From Armatimonadota bacterium (lineage in GTDB: Bacteria > Armatimonadota > HRBIN16): DNA of 64,000 bases. The notes beneath the pieces are model-generated. The model was not told where the DNA came from. It saw only the letters and a list, made by a program, of their open reading frames with translations, and did no database searches. Both the position numbers and the translations under genes were made by a program. Location of the stretch: the NCBI GenBank assembly GCA_026003175.1, contig BPGT01000001.1:1526839-1590838 (forward strand), read 5' to 3'. Positions 15,303 to 26,267 of this stretch are shown here, in pieces (the stretch's first letter is position 1; each line of letters begins with the position of its first letter).

Positions 15303-18275
15303 TCACAATTCCTGCAGTCGCCGACGAACCACCTGGATATCAGGATGTTCCGAAGGGTACACCATCTCGAACACATCCAGCGCATGGCAGTAAGCTGAGC
15401 GCGCTCCTTCTACGTCTCCTCTTCCCTGCAAGGCGTCACCGAGGTATACTAGGCTCTCTCCCATATCTGCCACATCCGCTCCGAACGTCCTTTCGTAAAT
15501 GGATGCCGCCTGCTGGTGGCACTCGATAGCCTGCTGGTATTGCCCCGCTTTGGTGAGCACACGCCCTATATTGTTCAAACGAATAGCCACGCGGAGATGC
15601 CTCCTTCCGTACAGCCGCTCGTCTATCTCCAGTGACTCACGCAAGTAGCCCATTGCTGCCTGCAAATCGCCCTGCGCCTCGTGCAAAGTGCCCAGATTGT
15701 TCAGAATGGTGGCTACTGTAGCGTGCTCGCGCCCGTACGTTTCCGTTGCCTGATGGAGAGCCTGCTCATAGTATAGTTGCGCCTGCGAGAGGTCGCCGTT
15801 CATCTTCAGTACATATCCCGCGGTGTTCAGACACTCCACCATTTCGGGCGCGGAAGGTGGAAGATGCTGTCTTGCCAGGCGAAGCGCCTCCTGGGCGTAG
15901 TACAGCGCCCTCTCGGGTTGACGTGCCTGCTCGCAGGTGTATCCCAATTGCCTCATACAGAGCACGACATGTATCGGCTCATCGGGGTGGAGGATCGGGA
16001 CATGGTGTAACGCCCCCTCCAGCAGAGCTACCGACTCGGTGAAGCGGCTGGATTCGGTAAGAGCCAGTGCCAGCTGCACCATCAGTGCGATTCGTTCGCG
16101 GGAAGGGGCGTCCTTCTGTGTGGATGCTACCAGTGCCAGTGCGGTTTCCGTCTCCTCGCGCACGCGCGCCCAGTTCTGTGTCTTATTTGCTTCGGCGAAC
16201 CATCGAGCCAGTACAGCGCAAGCCATTCGTCTTCGTATGGCGTGCTCCGCAGGGGTAGCGCTCTCACCTGCGAACAGCCTCACCAGCTCATGGAAACGCA
16301 GACGACCGTTCGGCATCAGCATCGCCAGCGTTGCATCGCATAGCTCGGACACAGCCTCTTCGAACTGCACGTTGTCTAGCGTCTCACATAGCTCTACCAG
16401 CAGGGTAGTGCTTACAGAAGAGGCGCACAGGACAGCAGCTGTCTCTAGGACCTGCTTTGCCTCGCTGGTGAGAGAGCCTGTGGATACCGATAGCGCATCA
16501 TAGATGCTCCCCTCGTGTCCGGTGGTGCTCTGGAAGGTATATCGTGCCTGCTGGAGAGTATCCAGCGGGTTCTGTATGTGGTGGAGGTAGTCCTCAAACG
16601 ACATACGTAGTCGTGCGACGTGGCTGGCGATGAGGCTCAGCGCCAGGGGCAAATATCCTACCAGTCGGGCAAGTTGTCTTGCCGCTTCCAGCTCGCCCTC
16701 GGTACGCGCTTCATGACGGCACTGCAGCAGCATCAGCGCCGCCTCTTCGTCCAGGGGGGGTACCTGTATCACGCGGTATCCCTCCTGCACCAGGGAGGCG
16801 CGTTGTGTGGTGACCAGCAAACGACACTGTTCGCCGTGCGGTATCCAGGACGATTCGGTGGCTTCACTCAGGTTGTCCAGCACCACCAGAGTGCGCTCCG
16901 AAGCTTCACTCAGTTGCTTCCGAACTGCCTGTGCGCATTCCCTGGCGCTTCTTCCTTCCGATCGCTCTCCCTGCAGGAGAGTTAGCGACACGTACTGGTC
17001 TATGAGCCGTTGAGAGCTGGAAGCGTCCAGCCAGAACACCCCGCCGGGGTAGCTGTTGGCAAAGGTGCGGGCATACTCCGCCGCTACCTGCGTTTTGCCA
17101 ATGCCGGGGAACCCGACCAACGCTGCAGACTCCGAGGCGGACAGAGTGCGGTGAACCTGCACCAGAAGGCCCCGCCTGCCTACGAAGTCCGGGTTTGCGG
17201 CGAAGGGGATAGAGATAACATGCACCGTATCGGTGGGCTCGGGAGAAAACAGGGTGGCGGTAGCACTATTGAGGAACAGTACCGGCGTTCCCCAATCGGT
17301 ACCGAGCGTGCGAAGGTGACGACGGGCTTCACAAAGTGCTTCGTCAACCGCCCCGTGCGCGGCTATCACTTCGTAGAGCACCCCGGTAAACTCAGGTGCA
17401 CTTTGGTCCCGGAACCTCGCCTGCATAGCTACCACTGCGGGCACACCCGCTTGCGAGAGTGTCTCGGCGACACCTTGTACCGCCCCAGCCGAGAGGCACG
17501 AGGTCAACACTACCATTTTTACTCCGGGCAAGGGAAGCCATTCCGCGACCTGGTCAGCAAATACAAGGCTTTCAGTGGCGGGATCCGTACCGTGCAACAC
17601 CAGAAACGCTCCCGATGGGCGAGCATCACTGTGTCCCGCAAAATGCACGACGTGAGGAGCGGGCGGCATTCTCAGCCGATGATAGAGAGCGGCGGGGGTG
17701 GCGATGTCGATGTGCTCTATGCTCGCAGCATGTGCAGGGAGAGTAGCTAGCGCACGGCGGATTTGAGCAACCTCTTCCTCAACCGCTGAAAGAGCAGGGT
17801 AACCGGGCGTAGCGGGATTGGCAGAAACCACCAGCACCCGAAGGCTCCCCACGCTGTCTATTCGGGTATCTCTCGGCGCAGCCGGGCAGCGAACTAGCAA
17901 CAGGTTCGGGTGAAGGCAGAGAAACCCCCCAGGCGTACAGACATATTCCCAAGGCAGTGACGCCAGTGAAGGAGAGGAGAAATGAACACGAAGACGCACT
18001 TTTTCGCTGTGCAGTAGCGGCTGTAGTGCTTGCAGAATCGGCGACGGCAGAAGCACCGACGCCAGCTGCTCACCCAGCTCCTGCACCAGACTTTGCGGAA
18101 ACTGCCCGGGTGCCAGGTTCTGCATGGGAGCAAGATACTGCCGGCGCAGGTAGGGGATGTCGAGCGGAGGTGTGTGAGCACAGGCTAGTAACGCGCCGTT
18201 CTCATAGCGTGCCAGCTTCACAAGGTAGCCCGAGTGGTCCTGCTCTGGGCTTATGGTCAGGCACAGGTCGTGCAT
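15303..18275 (-). CDS. CHAT protease / NB-ARC (STAND) NTPase / TPR fusion
   Basis: A 990-residue modular protein. Residues 95-345 form a CHAT caspase-like peptidase: LASLPWEY, VVHFAGHSD with the catalytic His near 215, and VLTSCLSAG with the catalytic Cys near 260. Residues 365-600 are an NB-ARC NTPase with Walker A GFPGIGKT (388-395), Walker B LVVLDN (463-468), a sensor LLVTT and a GYLPLAL motif. From about 740 to the end are some six TPR units. This is the plan of STAND signalling switches: the TPRs sense a ligand, nucleotide exchange opens the molecule, and the protease acts. CHAT enzymes work in bacterial conflict and cell-death systems. It overlaps the preceding gene by 19 bases. Confidence 0.88.
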   Translation of the reverse strand: MHDLCLTISPEQDHSGYLVKLARYENGALLACAHTPPLDIPYLRRQYLAPMQNLAPGQFPQSLVQELGEQLASVLLPSPILQALQPLLHSEKVRLRVHFSSPSLASLPWEYVCTPGGFLCLHPNLLLVRCPAAPRDTRIDSVGSLRVLVVSANPATPGYPALSAVEEEVAQIRRALATLPAHAASIEHIDIATPAALYHRLRMPPAPHVVHFAGHSDARPSGAFLVLHGTDPATESLVFADQVAEWLPLPGVKMVVLTSCLSAGAVQGVAETLSQAGVPAVVAMQARFRDQSAPEFTGVLYEVIAAHGAVDEALCEARRHLRTLGTDWGTPVLFLNSATATLFSPEPTDTVHVISIPFAANPDFVGRRGLLVQVHRTLSASESAALVGFPGIGKTQVAAEYARTFANSYPGGVFWLDASSSQRLIDQYVSLTLLQGERSEGRSARECAQAVRKQLSEASERTLVVLDNLSEATESSWIPHGEQCRLLVTTQRASLVQEGYRVIQVPPLDEEAALMLLQCRHEARTEGELEAARQLARLVGYLPLALSLIASHVARLRMSFEDYLHHIQNPLDTLQQARYTFQSTTGHEGSIYDALSVSTGSLTSEAKQVLETAAVLCASSVSTTLLVELCETLDNVQFEEAVSELCDATLAMLMPNGRLRFHELVRLFAGESATPAEHAIRRRMACAVLARWFAEANKTQNWARVREETETALALVASTQKDAPSRERIALMVQLALALTESSRFTESVALLEGALHHVPILHPDEPIHVVLCMRQLGYTCEQARQPERALYYAQEALRLARQHLPPSAPEMVECLNTAGYVLKMNGDLSQAQLYYEQALHQATETYGREHATVATILNNLGTLHEAQGDLQAAMGYLRESLEIDERLYGRRHLRVAIRLNNIGRVLTKAGQYQQAIECHQQAASIYERTFGADVADMGESLVYLGDALQGRGDVEGARSAYCHALDVFEMVYPSEHPDIQVVRRRLQEL

Positions 18276-19420
18276 TCGTCAGGTACTCTCAGTCGCATCC
18301 TCACTAATGTCGTGCTGGGCAGGACACCTGCCGGCAAGCCGGGGGCTTCAGCAAGGAGTTCCATGCTTTCCGCCTGCCACAGGCTGACCTCCCACTCGCC
18401 TATCTTCTGCCATGCCGCAGGCGTGACGCGCAATTCCACAATCAGGTGGCGGTCCGGGTAACGCTGGCGCACCTCGTCGGGCAGGCGAACACGCATTCGA
18501 AACCGCTCGTTCACGCATTCCGGCAGCCCCAGTATCTCTGCCCATGCTGGCGTTTCTCCCTCCAGCTCCAGCGGGACACGCACCTGCTGCCCGCCAAAGG
18601 ATAGCGGCACAGTGCTCAGTTCCACCACCAGATACCCCTGCGGGAGACCTCCTGCTGGCAGGGAACCAAATGTCGGCGGCAACGGAAGCACAGCTTCGTA
18701 CTGACCGCCGAAGACCTCTCCAGCCGCCAGGGGAACGATTTCTCCCCCCATGTTCACAGCGATGGCTATGGGCGCGCCCGAGAGGTGTGCGGCAGGCGAA
18801 CCATCTGGTTGCCGTAGGATAACCCGCAGAGAGATATCGCCTTCGGGAGTGACGATGAACCTGTCCACGATGGTCTCTATATCCTGGGGCACCCCTTCCG
18901 CCAGAAGTACCTGCGCCCTGTCGCCGGAACGTGCTAGTGCGAACGTAGGCATCCGCATCATCACCGTCCAGCGATGCCACACTGCGCTCAGCAGTGTGAA
19001 AGCCCCCATCTTCGTCCCGGCTCCTTCGCTCACCATTGTGTGCGAGCGCTCCCACCAGCGCGGCAGGCGTGTGAGCGATTCTGTTTGCACGGATACCATC
19101 TCCAGCCATATTCGCGCTACCTGTGTCTGAAGGTCATCACCTGTGCACATCCTGTGGATATCTCTCAGAGACAGTCGCTGCAGCTCACCCAGCACCTCGT
19201 CAACCCGAAGCCAGATCTCTCGTATGGCGAAGCCGGCGGTCAAGGCTCCCTCCACTGTTTCCGCCTCCTGCGCCGTGAGCAACCCGGCGCAGTAACGCAC
19301 TAGCATTGCGATATCGATCGGTTCCTCCGTAGGGGGAGCTAGCGCTCTTTGTTTCCTCAGCCACTCGCCCAGGATCCGCGTGCCGTGCGAACTCCATGCA
19401 TACTCCCGCTTATTCTGCAT
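18257..19420 (-). CDS. Unknown protein with anti-sigma-like N terminus, in the sigma/CHAT cassette
   Basis: A 387-residue protein I cannot assign to a named family. Residues 40-85 (MLVRYCAGLLTAQEAETVEG) resemble the helical, zinc-free anti-sigma N-terminal pattern. The rest is rich in beta-strand patterns with many proline turns (about 150-370), like one or two beta-sandwich domains. No membrane helix is visible. It starts 11 bases inside the end of the sigma factor gene behind AAAGGAGG and overlaps the CHAT gene by 19 bases. A sigma-antagonist or sensor role is inferred from the N-terminal resemblance and gene order. Confidence 0.5.
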   Translation of the reverse strand: MQNKREYAWSSHGTRILGEWLRKQRALAPPTEEPIDIAMLVRYCAGLLTAQEAETVEGALTAGFAIREIWLRVDEVLGELQRLSLRDIHRMCTGDDLQTQVARIWLEMVSVQTESLTRLPRWWERSHTMVSEGAGTKMGAFTLLSAVWHRWTVMMRMPTFALARSGDRAQVLLAEGVPQDIETIVDRFIVTPEGDISLRVILRQPDGSPAAHLSGAPIAIAVNMGGEIVPLAAGEVFGGQYEAVLPLPPTFGSLPAGGLPQGYLVVELSTVPLSFGGQQVRVPLELEGETPAWAEILGLPECVNERFRMRVRLPDEVRQRYPDRHLIVELRVTPAAWQKIGEWEVSLWQAESMELLAEAPGLPAGVLPSTTLVRMRLRVPDECTTCA

Positions 19421-20588
19421 CGCTCACACCTCCTTTCCATTGCTGGTAAAATCTGGCAAGCCGCTGTGCCAGTCTCCCGTTGCTGAGCCAGACGTTGAGC
19501 ATCCCCATCGTGAGATGATAGCCAGCGCACTCGGCGGCGGGAAACATCCTTTCACAGATATCAACGTGAGCCAAGCCATCGTGATAACAGTACTGAAACG
19601 CAAGCCGTTGCCACAAGCCCGCGCTGGATACCACTTCTGTGAGGTCCGCCCCGCCTGCCTGCTCGAAACGCTCCAGCAGCTGTGCCATCTGCTGCCGAAA
19701 AGGAAGCCTTTGCTGGAATCGCTCCTGCAACCCCTGTATCTCCCCCGCGGAGAAGGGGCAGTCCACACGCTGGCGCATCCTGTTCGGTTGCAGTCCGTAG
19801 CGATATCGCCACGCAACAAACCAGGCTTCTTCCCAGGTGGAGACGCCTGGCGGTGGCGTCCACGAGGTAGCGCATTGCAAGAGACACCGGACCGCCTCGT
19901 CCACCTGCTTTTCGGTAAACGGTTCAGGCAGCTGCAACAGGTAACCCGTTAAACGGTCGTTGGAATAGTAAAGGGTGTGATAGCAAAGGTGTCTCAGTAC
20001 CCCAGGCTGCGTTAGCCAAACGTCAAGAGTGCTGCGGTCCAGCCGGATGCCGGTGGGCAAGAGCAGGTGCACTATCTCCTGCCACGATTTACCGTGCAGG
20101 TAATAGAGCTGGGCGGCGAGCAGGCGAACGTGATGCATTCGTGGGGGAACGTGCGCGTCCAGTCCCAGCCACAGGAGGTCGGCGGCGAGATACAGCTCCT
20201 TCGCCAGCATCGCTGCTGCCAGCGAGTCAGCAGTGTCGGCGATGTGCGTGGCCTCCGGTTCCTCAATATCGTCCAGCGAAAGGGTTTCCTGTACCAGGCG
20301 TCGGCGCATATCGATCATGCATCGGTACGCGGTGCGCCGGATGAATGCAAACCATGCCTGCTCACCCTGATTACGGAACCGGTCGCGAGAAGCCCATATC
20401 CGCAGGAAGCAGTCCTGAATCACATCTTCACGGTCATCCACGTTATGCAGCCATACGCTGAGGTAGCGGAGAAGGTAGGGGCGGCTCACCTTCCAGAGGT
20501 ATTCCCAAGCCTCACGCGCTCTCCCCTCGTTGGCGTCTGCCAGCAAGTGCAGCACCTGGTCCAGTTGTGCGCGGGTGCTGGTTTGCAC
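19410..20588 (-). CDS. ECF-like sigma factor with a long C-terminal extension
   Basis: Residues 30-115 match sigma-70 region 2 (RPYLLRYLS, DREDVIQDCFLRIW, RRTAYRCMIDMRRR). The protein is about 392 residues, twice the length of an ordinary ECF factor. The extension contains two similar helix-turn-helix-like segments, HGKSWQEIV with LDVWLTQPG, and HDGLAHVDI with LNVWLSNGRL, suggesting an internal duplication of region-4-like modules. The start is the GTG at 20588 (GGGAG seven bases before). The longer frame begins with a GTG whose next codons contain the -10 box TATAAT, so it cannot be translated. It should drive its own operon, autoregulation being typical of the class. Confidence 0.72.
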   Translation of the reverse strand: MQTSTRAQLDQVLHLLADANEGRAREAWEYLWKVSRPYLLRYLSVWLHNVDDREDVIQDCFLRIWASRDRFRNQGEQAWFAFIRRTAYRCMIDMRRRLVQETLSLDDIEEPEATHIADTADSLAAAMLAKELYLAADLLWLGLDAHVPPRMHHVRLLAAQLYYLHGKSWQEIVHLLLPTGIRLDRSTLDVWLTQPGVLRHLCYHTLYYSNDRLTGYLLQLPEPFTEKQVDEAVRCLLQCATSWTPPPGVSTWEEAWFVAWRYRYGLQPNRMRQRVDCPFSAGEIQGLQERFQQRLPFRQQMAQLLERFEQAGGADLTEVVSSAGLWQRLAFQYCYHDGLAHVDICERMFPAAECAGYHLTMGMLNVWLSNGRLAQRLARFYQQWKGGVSDAE

Positions 20589-20615
20589 CGCTTCTCTCCC
20601 GAGGCGTAATGGCTT

Positions 20616-20645
20616 ATTATACACCTTTCACCAGGTTGTTGTCAC
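20616..20645 (-). promoter_or_regulatory. Promoter of the sigma/CHAT operon
   Basis: On the minus strand GTGACA (20645-20640) lies 18 bases before a perfect TATAAT (20621-20616). The start of transcription would be near 20609, about 20 bases before the sigma GTG. The -35 box touches the first base of the repeat array, so the repeat may have brought or altered control sequences. Confidence 0.6.
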
Positions 20646-21055
20646 TAGCAACCGAGGGTGTTCGAAATTGCTGGTTGAATGGATAGATAACCTAACCCCC
20701 TTGCCCCCTTCCCTGCAAGGGAAGGGGGAACGCCCCTCTCCTCGTAGGAGAGGGGACGGGGGTGAGGTAAGGCAGGGATAGCAAGAACGCCTCTCTCCTT
20801 GCGCTACAACCAACTTCTCAACAATTCTCGAACACCCTCCTAGCAACCGAGGGTGTTCGAAATTGCTGGTTGAATGGATAGATAACCTAACCCCCTTGCC
20901 CCCTTCCCTGCAAGGGAAGGGGGAACGCCCCTCTCCTCGTAGGAGAGGGGACGGGGGTGAGGTAAGGCAGGGATAGCAAGAACGCCTCTCTCCTTGCGCT
21001 ACAACCAACTTCTCAACAATTCTCGAACACCCTCCTAGCAACCGAGGGTGTTCGA
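20645..21055. repeat. Two tandem 195-bp units with terminal inverted repeats plus a partial third
   Basis: Each unit is a 9-base direct repeat CTAGCAACC followed by a 186-base body (20654-20839 and 20849-21034). The body starts with GAGGGTGTTCGA and ends with its inverse. A third CTAGCAACC plus GAGGGTGTTCGA begins at 21035. Inside each body are two perfect hairpins: CCCCTTCCCT/AGGGAAGGGG and CCCCTCTCC/GGAGAGGGG. The hairpin core closely resembles the units at 59481-59987. Reading frames across it are spurious. The following 21056-21258 shows no gene I can support. Confidence 0.85.
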
Positions 21056-21258
21056 AAAATCGCATAGACCCCACACCCATACCCGACCACCTTGCCTATA
21101 ACCCAACGCCACCAGTTTCACGTGCGACCGCTGCCGACGAACCTGCGCCCCACCCAACCAGCGCATCAGAAACTTCGCCGTATGACTTCGAGCGAGTGTT
21201 AGTTCATCCCTGAATATTTCGTTTATTGAACAGAACGCTGTGAGAGGAGATAACCACG

Positions 21259-23117: not shown

Positions 23118-23300
23118 CTATTTGGAATGAGGCTGGTTCTGCCCGAGAACCATCAGCAACCCCAGCACCGCTCCGTAAATCGCTGCGATGAAGGGATTGC
23201 AGAGAATGCCTCAGGTACTACCCACCTTGCGCGACAGCACAGACAATACCAGCCCTGCAACTGCCCCACCCAGCGCGGCAAGAATAGCTTTTATCGGCAT
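23118..23300 (-). CDS. Two-helix membrane protein with in-frame UGA (candidate selenoprotein, DUF6132-like)
   Basis: Sixty codons plus TAG, interrupted only by a UGA at codon 30 (23213-23211). It starts seven bases after the thioredoxin stop, with AAGGGGG as ribosome site. Before the UGA is one hydrophobic helix (ILAALGGAVAGLVLSVLS); after it the same frame gives GILCNPFIAAIYGAVLGLLM, a second helix. The junction reads T-UGA-G-I-L-C-N-P. I recall that small two-helix DUF6132-type proteins carry T-C-P-I-T-S-N-P here, which puts the UGA at a conserved cysteine. A short stem AUCG-CAG-CGAU lies 22-32 bases after the UGA, where bacterial SECIS loops occur. A sequencing error, or a true stop in a decaying gene, remains possible. 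Confidence 0.55.
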
Positions 23301-23307
23301 GGGTGCA

Positions 23308-23733
23308 CTATCCCCCTTGCTGGTTCTCTTCGCTGGCTGTCGGTGCTGGCGCTTCGGCTGGCAAGTAGGGCAGTATCTTCGCCATGATATGCTGTTTAGG
23401 CATCAAACCAACCAGACGCTCGCGAGCGAAACCTCGTGTGAACAGGATGAGCGTCGGAATGCCCTGAATGCCGTAGGCGTTGGCGGTAATCGGGTTCTCG
23501 TCGGTATTGAGCTTCACCACCTTCAGCCTGCCCTGATATTCACGGGCAATCTCTTCCAGAATGGGTGCGAGCATCCGGCAAGGCGCGCACCAGGGCGCCC
23601 AGAAGTCCACCAGCACCGGAATGTCCGATTCCAGCACCTCTTGCTTGAACGTGCTGGCATTGACGTGCTTAATCAGACCGCTTTCCGCATGGTCGGATGC
23701 CGGTCGCCGTCCGAATAGTCCGAACAAACCCAT
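23308..23733 (-). CDS. trxA: Thioredoxin
   Basis: A 141-residue thioredoxin fold with the active site WCAPC (about residue 47-51), the cis-proline region [11 protein letters not shown], and family strands VLVDFWAPW and [10 protein letters not shown]. It has a short N-terminal lead (about 18 residues) and an Ala/Pro-rich tail beyond the usual 105-110 residues, with no signal peptide. AAAGGAGGTGATAG precedes the ATG. It is followed immediately by the small UGA-containing membrane protein, so the pair may form a redox unit. That pairing is inference. Confidence 0.93.
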
Positions 23734-25285: not shown

Positions 25286-26267
25286 CTATGAGTTCCTTGT
25301 GCGCACCAGCTCCGCCTGCCGCTCGAATAGCACGCTGACCGAGTCGTCGTTGTGGATGCGCAGAATCGCCTCCGCCAGCAGCGGCGCTACCGACAGCACA
25401 GTAATCTTTTCGTTGATCTTGTCGGGTGTTACCGGAATGGTGTCGGTGACGATGAGTTTACGGATAGGTGAGCGCAGAATCCGTTCCGGGGCGTTGCCGG
25501 AGAGCACCGGGTGCGTGCAGCAGGCTATCACTCCCGTCGCGCCGCGTTCTATCAACGCCTCCGCCCCCTGCACCAGCGAGCCGCCTGTATCTACCATATC
25601 GTCGATCATGATGGCGGTTTTGCCTTCCACGTTGCCTACCACTTCCATCACTTCCACTTTGTTCGGTTCGGGGCGTCTTTTGGCGATAATGGCGAAAGGC
25701 ACATCCAGCATCTCAGCCAGCGCTTTGGCACGGGGGGGTACCTGCTACATCCGGCGAAACCACCACGCAGTTCTCGTGTGCCAGACCGGACTCGATGAGG
25801 TATTCCCCGATAATCGGGCCGGCGTACAAGTGGTCTACGGGCAGGTTGAAGAAGCCCTGAATCTGCTGGGCGTGCAGGTCTACGGTAAGGATGCGGTTTG
25901 CTCCCGCCACTTCCAGCAGGTTGGCAACCAGGCGGGCAGTTATCGGCTCACGCGGTTTGACCTTCTTGTCCTGCCGGGCGTAGCCGTAGTAGGGCATGAC
26001 GCAGGTAATGCGCCTTGCCGACGCCCGACGGAAGGCGTCTAGCATGATGAGCAGTTCCATCAGGTTCTCGTTCACGGGAGCACAAGTCGGCTGCACGATG
26101 AACACATCCAGTCCACGCGCGTTTTCCCCTACCTGCACGCGTATCTCCCCGTCCGAGAAGCGGGATACCAGTATCTGCCCCAGCGGTATCCCCAAACAGT
26201 CCGCGATGTTTGCTGCCAGCAACGGATTGGCGTTGCCGGTAAAGATGCGCATACGGTCCTTATTCAT
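25286..26267 (-). CDS. prs: Ribose-phosphate pyrophosphokinase, interrupted by a one-base frameshift
   Basis: Makes PRPP for nucleotide, His and Trp synthesis. The first part (26267 to about 25740) has [39 protein letters not shown] and the ATP loop, reaching SPDVAGTP. The second part (about 25735 to 25286) resumes with RAKALAEML and has IIAKRRPEP and the PRPP-binding DDMVDTGGS. The break is in a run of seven Cs on the coding strand (25738-25732). Removing one C gives D-V-A-G-T-P-R-A-K-A-L, aligning without gap to the usual D-V-G-G-V-A-R-A-R-A-L. The gene is normally essential, so an indel error or slippage is more likely than true loss. GAGG precedes the start. Confidence 0.9.

Follow-up and report, generated by a model that had tools for sequence, protein, structure and literature searches.

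A 64,000-nucleotide stretch of DNA from an Armatimonadota bacterium, here called the window, contains a short reading frame immediately downstream of the thioredoxin gene trxA that is open except for a single UGA codon. This raises the question of whether the UGA terminates translation or is read as selenocysteine (Sec), and if so, what kind of protein is produced. The features of the locus are listed below.

23308 to 23733, minus strand: trxA, cytoplasmic-type thioredoxin with the motif WCAPC, 7 bp upstream of the candidate selenoprotein gene
23118 to 23300, minus strand: candidate selenoprotein gene, 60 residues, from the ATG at 23300 to the TAG at 23120-23118; two predicted hydrophobic helices and a GSTUGILCNP loop
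23211 to 23213, minus strand: in-frame UGA at codon 30, almost certainly read as Sec; TGC or TGT in the same column in 25 relatives
23199 to 23201, minus strand: Cys34, probable resolving cysteine (UxxxC); Cys at +4 in all 17 thioredoxin-linked members
23157 to 23199, minus strand: proposed SECIS, a long hairpin 12 to 54 nt past the UGA, based on a consensus fold, covariation and a recoding test

A 60-codon frame with one UGA downstream of trxA

On the minus strand, the trxA gene ends with TAG and is followed by 7 bases and the ATG of the 60-codon frame, in agreement with the first-pass annotation. The only internal stop is the TGA at codon 30, and with this codon translated as U the frame reads MPIKAILAALGGAVAGLVLSVLSRKVGSTUGILCNPFIAAIYGAVLGLLMVLGQNQPHSK, followed by TAG. 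Two Kyte-Doolittle maxima were identified at approximately residues 5 to 23 and 32 to 50. An AlphaFold2 model made without an alignment placed helices at residues 3 to 26 and 28 to 54 (mean pLDDT 73.7, pTM 0.42), and the protein is predicted with moderate confidence to be a helical hairpin. The product of the upstream gene matched Pfam Thioredoxin at 3.6e-30 and the NCBIfam model TIGR01068 with 120.8 bits (cut-off 96.8).

A few features elsewhere in the window were also noted. The prs gene for ribose-phosphate pyrophosphokinase (25286-26267, minus strand) was interrupted at a stretch of seven C and thereby divided into 2 ORFs, representing either a homopolymer indel or slippage. The orthologue was intact in the other 9 members of the genus, and a second, intact prs-like gene was located at C1:748872-749798 in the window genome. 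An ORF of 990 residues (15303-18275, minus strand), in which CHAT-like, ATPase and TPR regions were recognized by eye, had a sigma-factor-like ORF (19410-20624) located upstream of it. The ORF-like stretch at 20628-21080 (minus strand) was tandemly repeated (PPSPLLRGEGRSPFPCREGG...) and is more suggestive of an intergenic repeat than of a gene.

The codon is TGA, TGC or TGT across the phylum

When 291 genomes of the phylum were searched in two rounds with profiles, the gene family was identified in 97 of them, always as a single copy. In the alignment of these 97 genomes, the codon in the UGA column was TGA in 72 (about a quarter of the phylum), TGC in 20 and TGT in 5, and never any other codon; the search profile had Cys in this column, which may have biased the matches toward C or U, but not toward TGA over TAA or TAG. 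No other in-frame stops were present within the aligned cores. The recurrence of the same TGA in 72 genomes takes the observation far beyond chance, and makes a sequencing error untenable.

A frame with exactly one TGA was found in 9 of the 10 members of the window's genus, including the window genome itself, while no match was obtained in G003. A single-sequence search against 60 relatives and the genome of origin also recovered the TGA form in 3 other families and the Cys form in 2 more. The other strongly conserved position was a proline located 6 residues past the Sec/Cys (88 of 97 members). Two matches to the first profile, G197 and G160:C2, looked spurious and were dropped; G160 contained a better-matching copy elsewhere. 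No relatives were found in pattern scans of the genome contigs, a negative result that is probably explained by the back-translation of Cys as TGY in these patterns. A search of plasmids for relatives of the gene gave no match.

The sequence downstream of the UGA is under selection. In the window's genus, the codons upstream of the UGA had a pN/pS ratio of 0.254 and those downstream of it a ratio of 0.155, rising to 0.995 past the TAG. The low value that ends at the TAG indicates that the second half is translated in this frame. Re-initiation past the UGA was ruled out, as the stretch from the UGA to the conserved CNP motif contains no start codon. The random stops in the second half of the gene that the first-pass annotation had named as counterevidence were absent from the relatives, which have kept the UGA together with a clean downstream part.

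Sec machinery and exchange between Sec and Cys

The genome from which the window was taken (4.1 Mb, 97% complete) encodes SelA (506 bits), SelB (415 bits, above the curated cut-off), SelD (385 bits) and a tRNA-Sec (72.9 bits, above the gathering score), the last of which was called by ARAGORN as tRNA-SeC with the anticodon UCA. All 4 components that the first-pass annotation had suggested searching for are thus present. The SelD protein (L010, G000:C1:45870-46793) is itself a selenoprotein with its own in-frame TGA in QVRCAGUASKLGP, and its gene contains a perfect 9-bp hairpin, CUGGCGCAG-GUG-CUGCGCCAG, with the loop 34 to 36 nt past the UGA. A global reassignment of UGA was ruled out, since TGA is the commonest ordinary stop codon in the window and terminates 16 of its 37 long ORFs.

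We scored the machinery in all 291 genomes with thresholds of E 1e-40 or better for SelA and E 1e-11 or better for tRNA-Sec. SelA and/or tRNA-Sec were identified in each of the 72 genomes with the TGA form, 65 of which contained both, and in only 2 of the 25 genomes with the Cys form (G016 and G163). The association between codon and machinery was highly significant when relatedness was not accounted for (Fisher p = 2.7e-20).

Five genera (g12, g88, g90, g95 and g132) contained both the TGA and the Cys form. In all of them except g95, the species with Cys lacked the machinery at these thresholds, whereas the species with TGA contained it. In g132, for example, the gene in G238 (L048) has TGA and the genome contains full SelA and tRNA-Sec, while the gene in its sister G237 (L098) has TGT and the genome yielded just a weak match to SelA and none to tRNA-Sec. 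G237 looks like a case in which Sec decoding was recently lost and Cys occupies the site.

A hairpin downstream of the UGA

According to the published bSECIS model, the apical loop consists of 3 to 9 nt with a G in the first two positions and is located 16 to 37 nt from the UGA (PMC13188914, Fig. 2A), although some bSECIS elements fall outside this consensus (PMC13188914). In families f12 and f30, the majority of the 41 UGA genes contained the hairpin CCGGC-GGU-GCCGG, which starts 16 nt past the UGA, with the loop occupying positions +21 to +23. Pairing was preserved in variants such as CCGGU-GGU-ACCGG (G033, G140) and GGGCAC-GGUC-GUGCCC (G108). When the test was set to at least 5 Watson-Crick pairs and a loop starting with G at 16 to 37 nt past the UGA, the model was fitted by 40 of the 41 UGA genes of f12/f30; among the Cys homologues 1 of 16 fitted, and among the upstream controls 2 of 41.

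The consensus was not matched by any of the 9 genes in the window's genus. Their loop, AUYUAC, lacks G at its first two positions, which points either to a different class of SECIS or to a detail that needs further clarification. The first-pass annotation had pointed to a small stem, AUCG-CAG-CGAU. This 11-nt stem is indeed present 22 to 32 nt past the UGA, but it was kept in only 2 of the 9 genus members and was rejected as the SECIS. Instead, the genus shares a longer hairpin with an outer stem CAAYCC/GGRUUG, an inner stem CAUYGC/GCRGUG and a loop around positions 23180-23175. In the RNAalifold consensus for the 9 members (-18.6 kcal/mol), columns 15-22/50-57, 24-29/43-48 and 32-33/40-41 were paired, and most of the members also fold into the long hairpin singly. 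Among 21 relatives with the same spacing, the levels of covariation and of paired cells were reached by none of 500 shuffles, a control that leaves relatedness in. Over a length of 54 nt past the UGA, which was picked after the covarying stem had been seen, the genus sequences formed more stable folds than their synonymously recoded versions (mean z -2.72, p 6e-6); the corresponding values were -1.79 for 22 other UGA genes and -0.49 for the Cys genes. No significant folding signal was obtained in the genus for the first 45 nt past the UGA, because the hairpin extends to +54.

The reading of the UGA as Sec, as put forward in the first-pass annotation, is upheld by the presence of the machinery, the exchange with Cys only, the selection on the second half and the downstream hairpin. 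From this comparative evidence we infer that Sec is almost certainly inserted at codon 30, and that the gene very probably encodes a membrane selenoprotein of about 60 residues with two helices.

Association with thioredoxin and a second cysteine

The ORFs around all 97 loci were searched with the TrxA protein of the window. A trxA gene was located directly upstream in all 9 gene-bearing members of the window's genus and in both f39 genomes, and directly downstream in both f8 genomes. In 4 genomes of family f15, the Cys form was joined to a thioredoxin domain with the motif WCGPC in a single uninterrupted frame (L034 in G023, L056 in G049, L059 in G036 and L164 in G058), although the frame in G058 ends at the edge of the fetched stretch. 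The fused thioredoxin of G049 matched Pfam Thioredoxin at 1.3e-24. If the fused domain is cytoplasmic, the Sec loop would be located either inside the membrane or on its non-cytoplasmic side.

Among the 97 loci, no thioredoxin neighbor was found in most of the other families, and the redox partner may therefore differ there; the frequent neighbors in f12 look like hemW and argS. A cysteine at position +4 from the Sec/Cys was present in 17 of 17 thioredoxin-linked members and in 15 of the 80 others, a comparison in which relatedness is not accounted for, and this second cysteine was not conserved family-wide. Fusion and adjacency support a UxxxC site that may be reduced by thioredoxin in this lineage. 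The first-pass proposal of a redox partner of the neighboring thioredoxin is thereby favored by the adjacency in f1, f39 and f8 and by the fusion in f15, but does not extend to most other families, where the link is missing. On these grounds, a thioredoxin-coupled redox role appears reasonably probable in the lineage of the window.

Relationship to known families

The first-pass annotation had likened the protein to DUF6132 (PF19628), and this relationship was partly borne out. The proteins are of the same size and align over nearly the whole length, and 13 of 35 family members matched DUF6132 at E < 0.01. With U read as C, the UGA members in G256 and G258 scored 31.7 and 24.8 bits, respectively, above the gathering threshold of 23.2. 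However, the window protein reached 14.2 bits against this cut-off of 23.2 and cannot be certified as a member, and the gene was not found when the Pfam DUF6132 model was run on the window genome. With the NCBIfam models of June 2026, the members shown in full had no match above cut-off, and the scan of 35 members gave only weak matches.

No description of DUF6132 as a selenoprotein was found in the open-access literature searched. The 119 families of prokaryotic selenoproteins in the 2026 inventory (PMC13188914, Table 1) do not include DUF6132 or a membrane hairpin with a UxxxC motif. It is likely that the family is new to the literature covered by our open-access search, with a listing in a supplement being possible. 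The YeeE/YedE, MerT-like and NqrE-like selenoproteins (PMC13188914) also have Sec in an integral membrane protein, but they are larger, belong to other families and have other Sec motifs. Sec-containing thioredoxins and UxxC redox selenoproteins likewise belong to the thioredoxin network and pair a selenol with a resolving cysteine, whereas the selenol here would belong to a UxxxC motif in a membrane hairpin outside the thioredoxin fold; the TrxA protein of the window itself has WCAPC and no Sec.

Proposed mechanism and alternative explanations

According to the mechanism that we propose, the UGA at codon 30 would be decoded as Sec by SelB and tRNA-Sec, directed by the mRNA hairpin just downstream. 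The selenol would sit in the loop between the two helices and, in the window's genus, would be paired with the Cys 4 residues further on, with which it may form a selenenylsulfide. The thioredoxin from the same operon would reduce this putative bond, making the protein a membrane-bound, thioredoxin-fed redox site that could act on a small thiol, a persulfide or a peroxide at the membrane. We tentatively extend this to a broader picture, which is possible although far from secure, of an unrecognized phylum-wide family in which thioredoxin, in some members part of the same polypeptide, feeds electrons to a membrane-embedded selenol for transfer to an acceptor in the membrane or outside the cytoplasm, with a SECIS class outside the consensus in this lineage.

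Alternatively, the Sec could be a binding or relay residue in a small, multimeric channel or transporter comparable to YeeE/TsuA, XapX or CrcB, with the part of thioredoxin limited to resetting this residue. Single members had weak profile matches to XapX, CrcB and TsuA/YeeE, the last from one member at E 0.022, YeeE/YedE is already established as a family of selenoproteins (PMC13188914), and conservation across the family is limited to the Sec/Cys and, mostly, the proline 6 residues further on. Two members gave weak matches to XapX (TIGR03510), which is likewise a small hydrophobic protein domain. Where checked, these matches were far below the curated cut-offs, as for XapX with 13.2 against 27.8, and a search for relatives of solved structure gave none (best E 0.067, judged to be chance). 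Since the fusion to and adjacency with thioredoxin favor redox chemistry, we consider a transporter or channel rather unlikely.

The other alternatives concern the codon rather than the function. Selection on the second half calls for read-through of the UGA without naming the residue, which could come from near-cognate Trp or Cys insertion or from a suppressor tRNA; yet the exchange with Cys codons only, the confinement of TGA to Sec-decoding genomes and the lack of the SECIS hairpin in nearly all Cys homologues make read-through without Sec highly improbable. That the UGA is a true stop after a 29-residue peptide, with the downstream conservation explained by gene decay or by an error in sequencing, follows from standard gene-calling rules and nothing beyond them, and has a vanishingly small probability given the TGA in 72 genomes across many families, the pN/pS of 0.155 in the second half and the missing start codon before the CNP motif.

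With Sec as the preferred reading of the UGA, the comparative evidence for a new phylum-wide selenoprotein family is strong. To standard gene callers, the UGA-containing gene is an ORF of 29 codons, which they would drop. The family would add one to the approximately 120 prokaryotic selenoprotein families, and is invisible to the NCBIfam models. The swaps between Sec and Cys within genera, which track the machinery and the absence of the hairpin, provide a natural experiment on keeping or losing Sec. Finally, the fusions to and adjacency with thioredoxin offer a direct biochemical hypothesis for a DUF6132-related protein.
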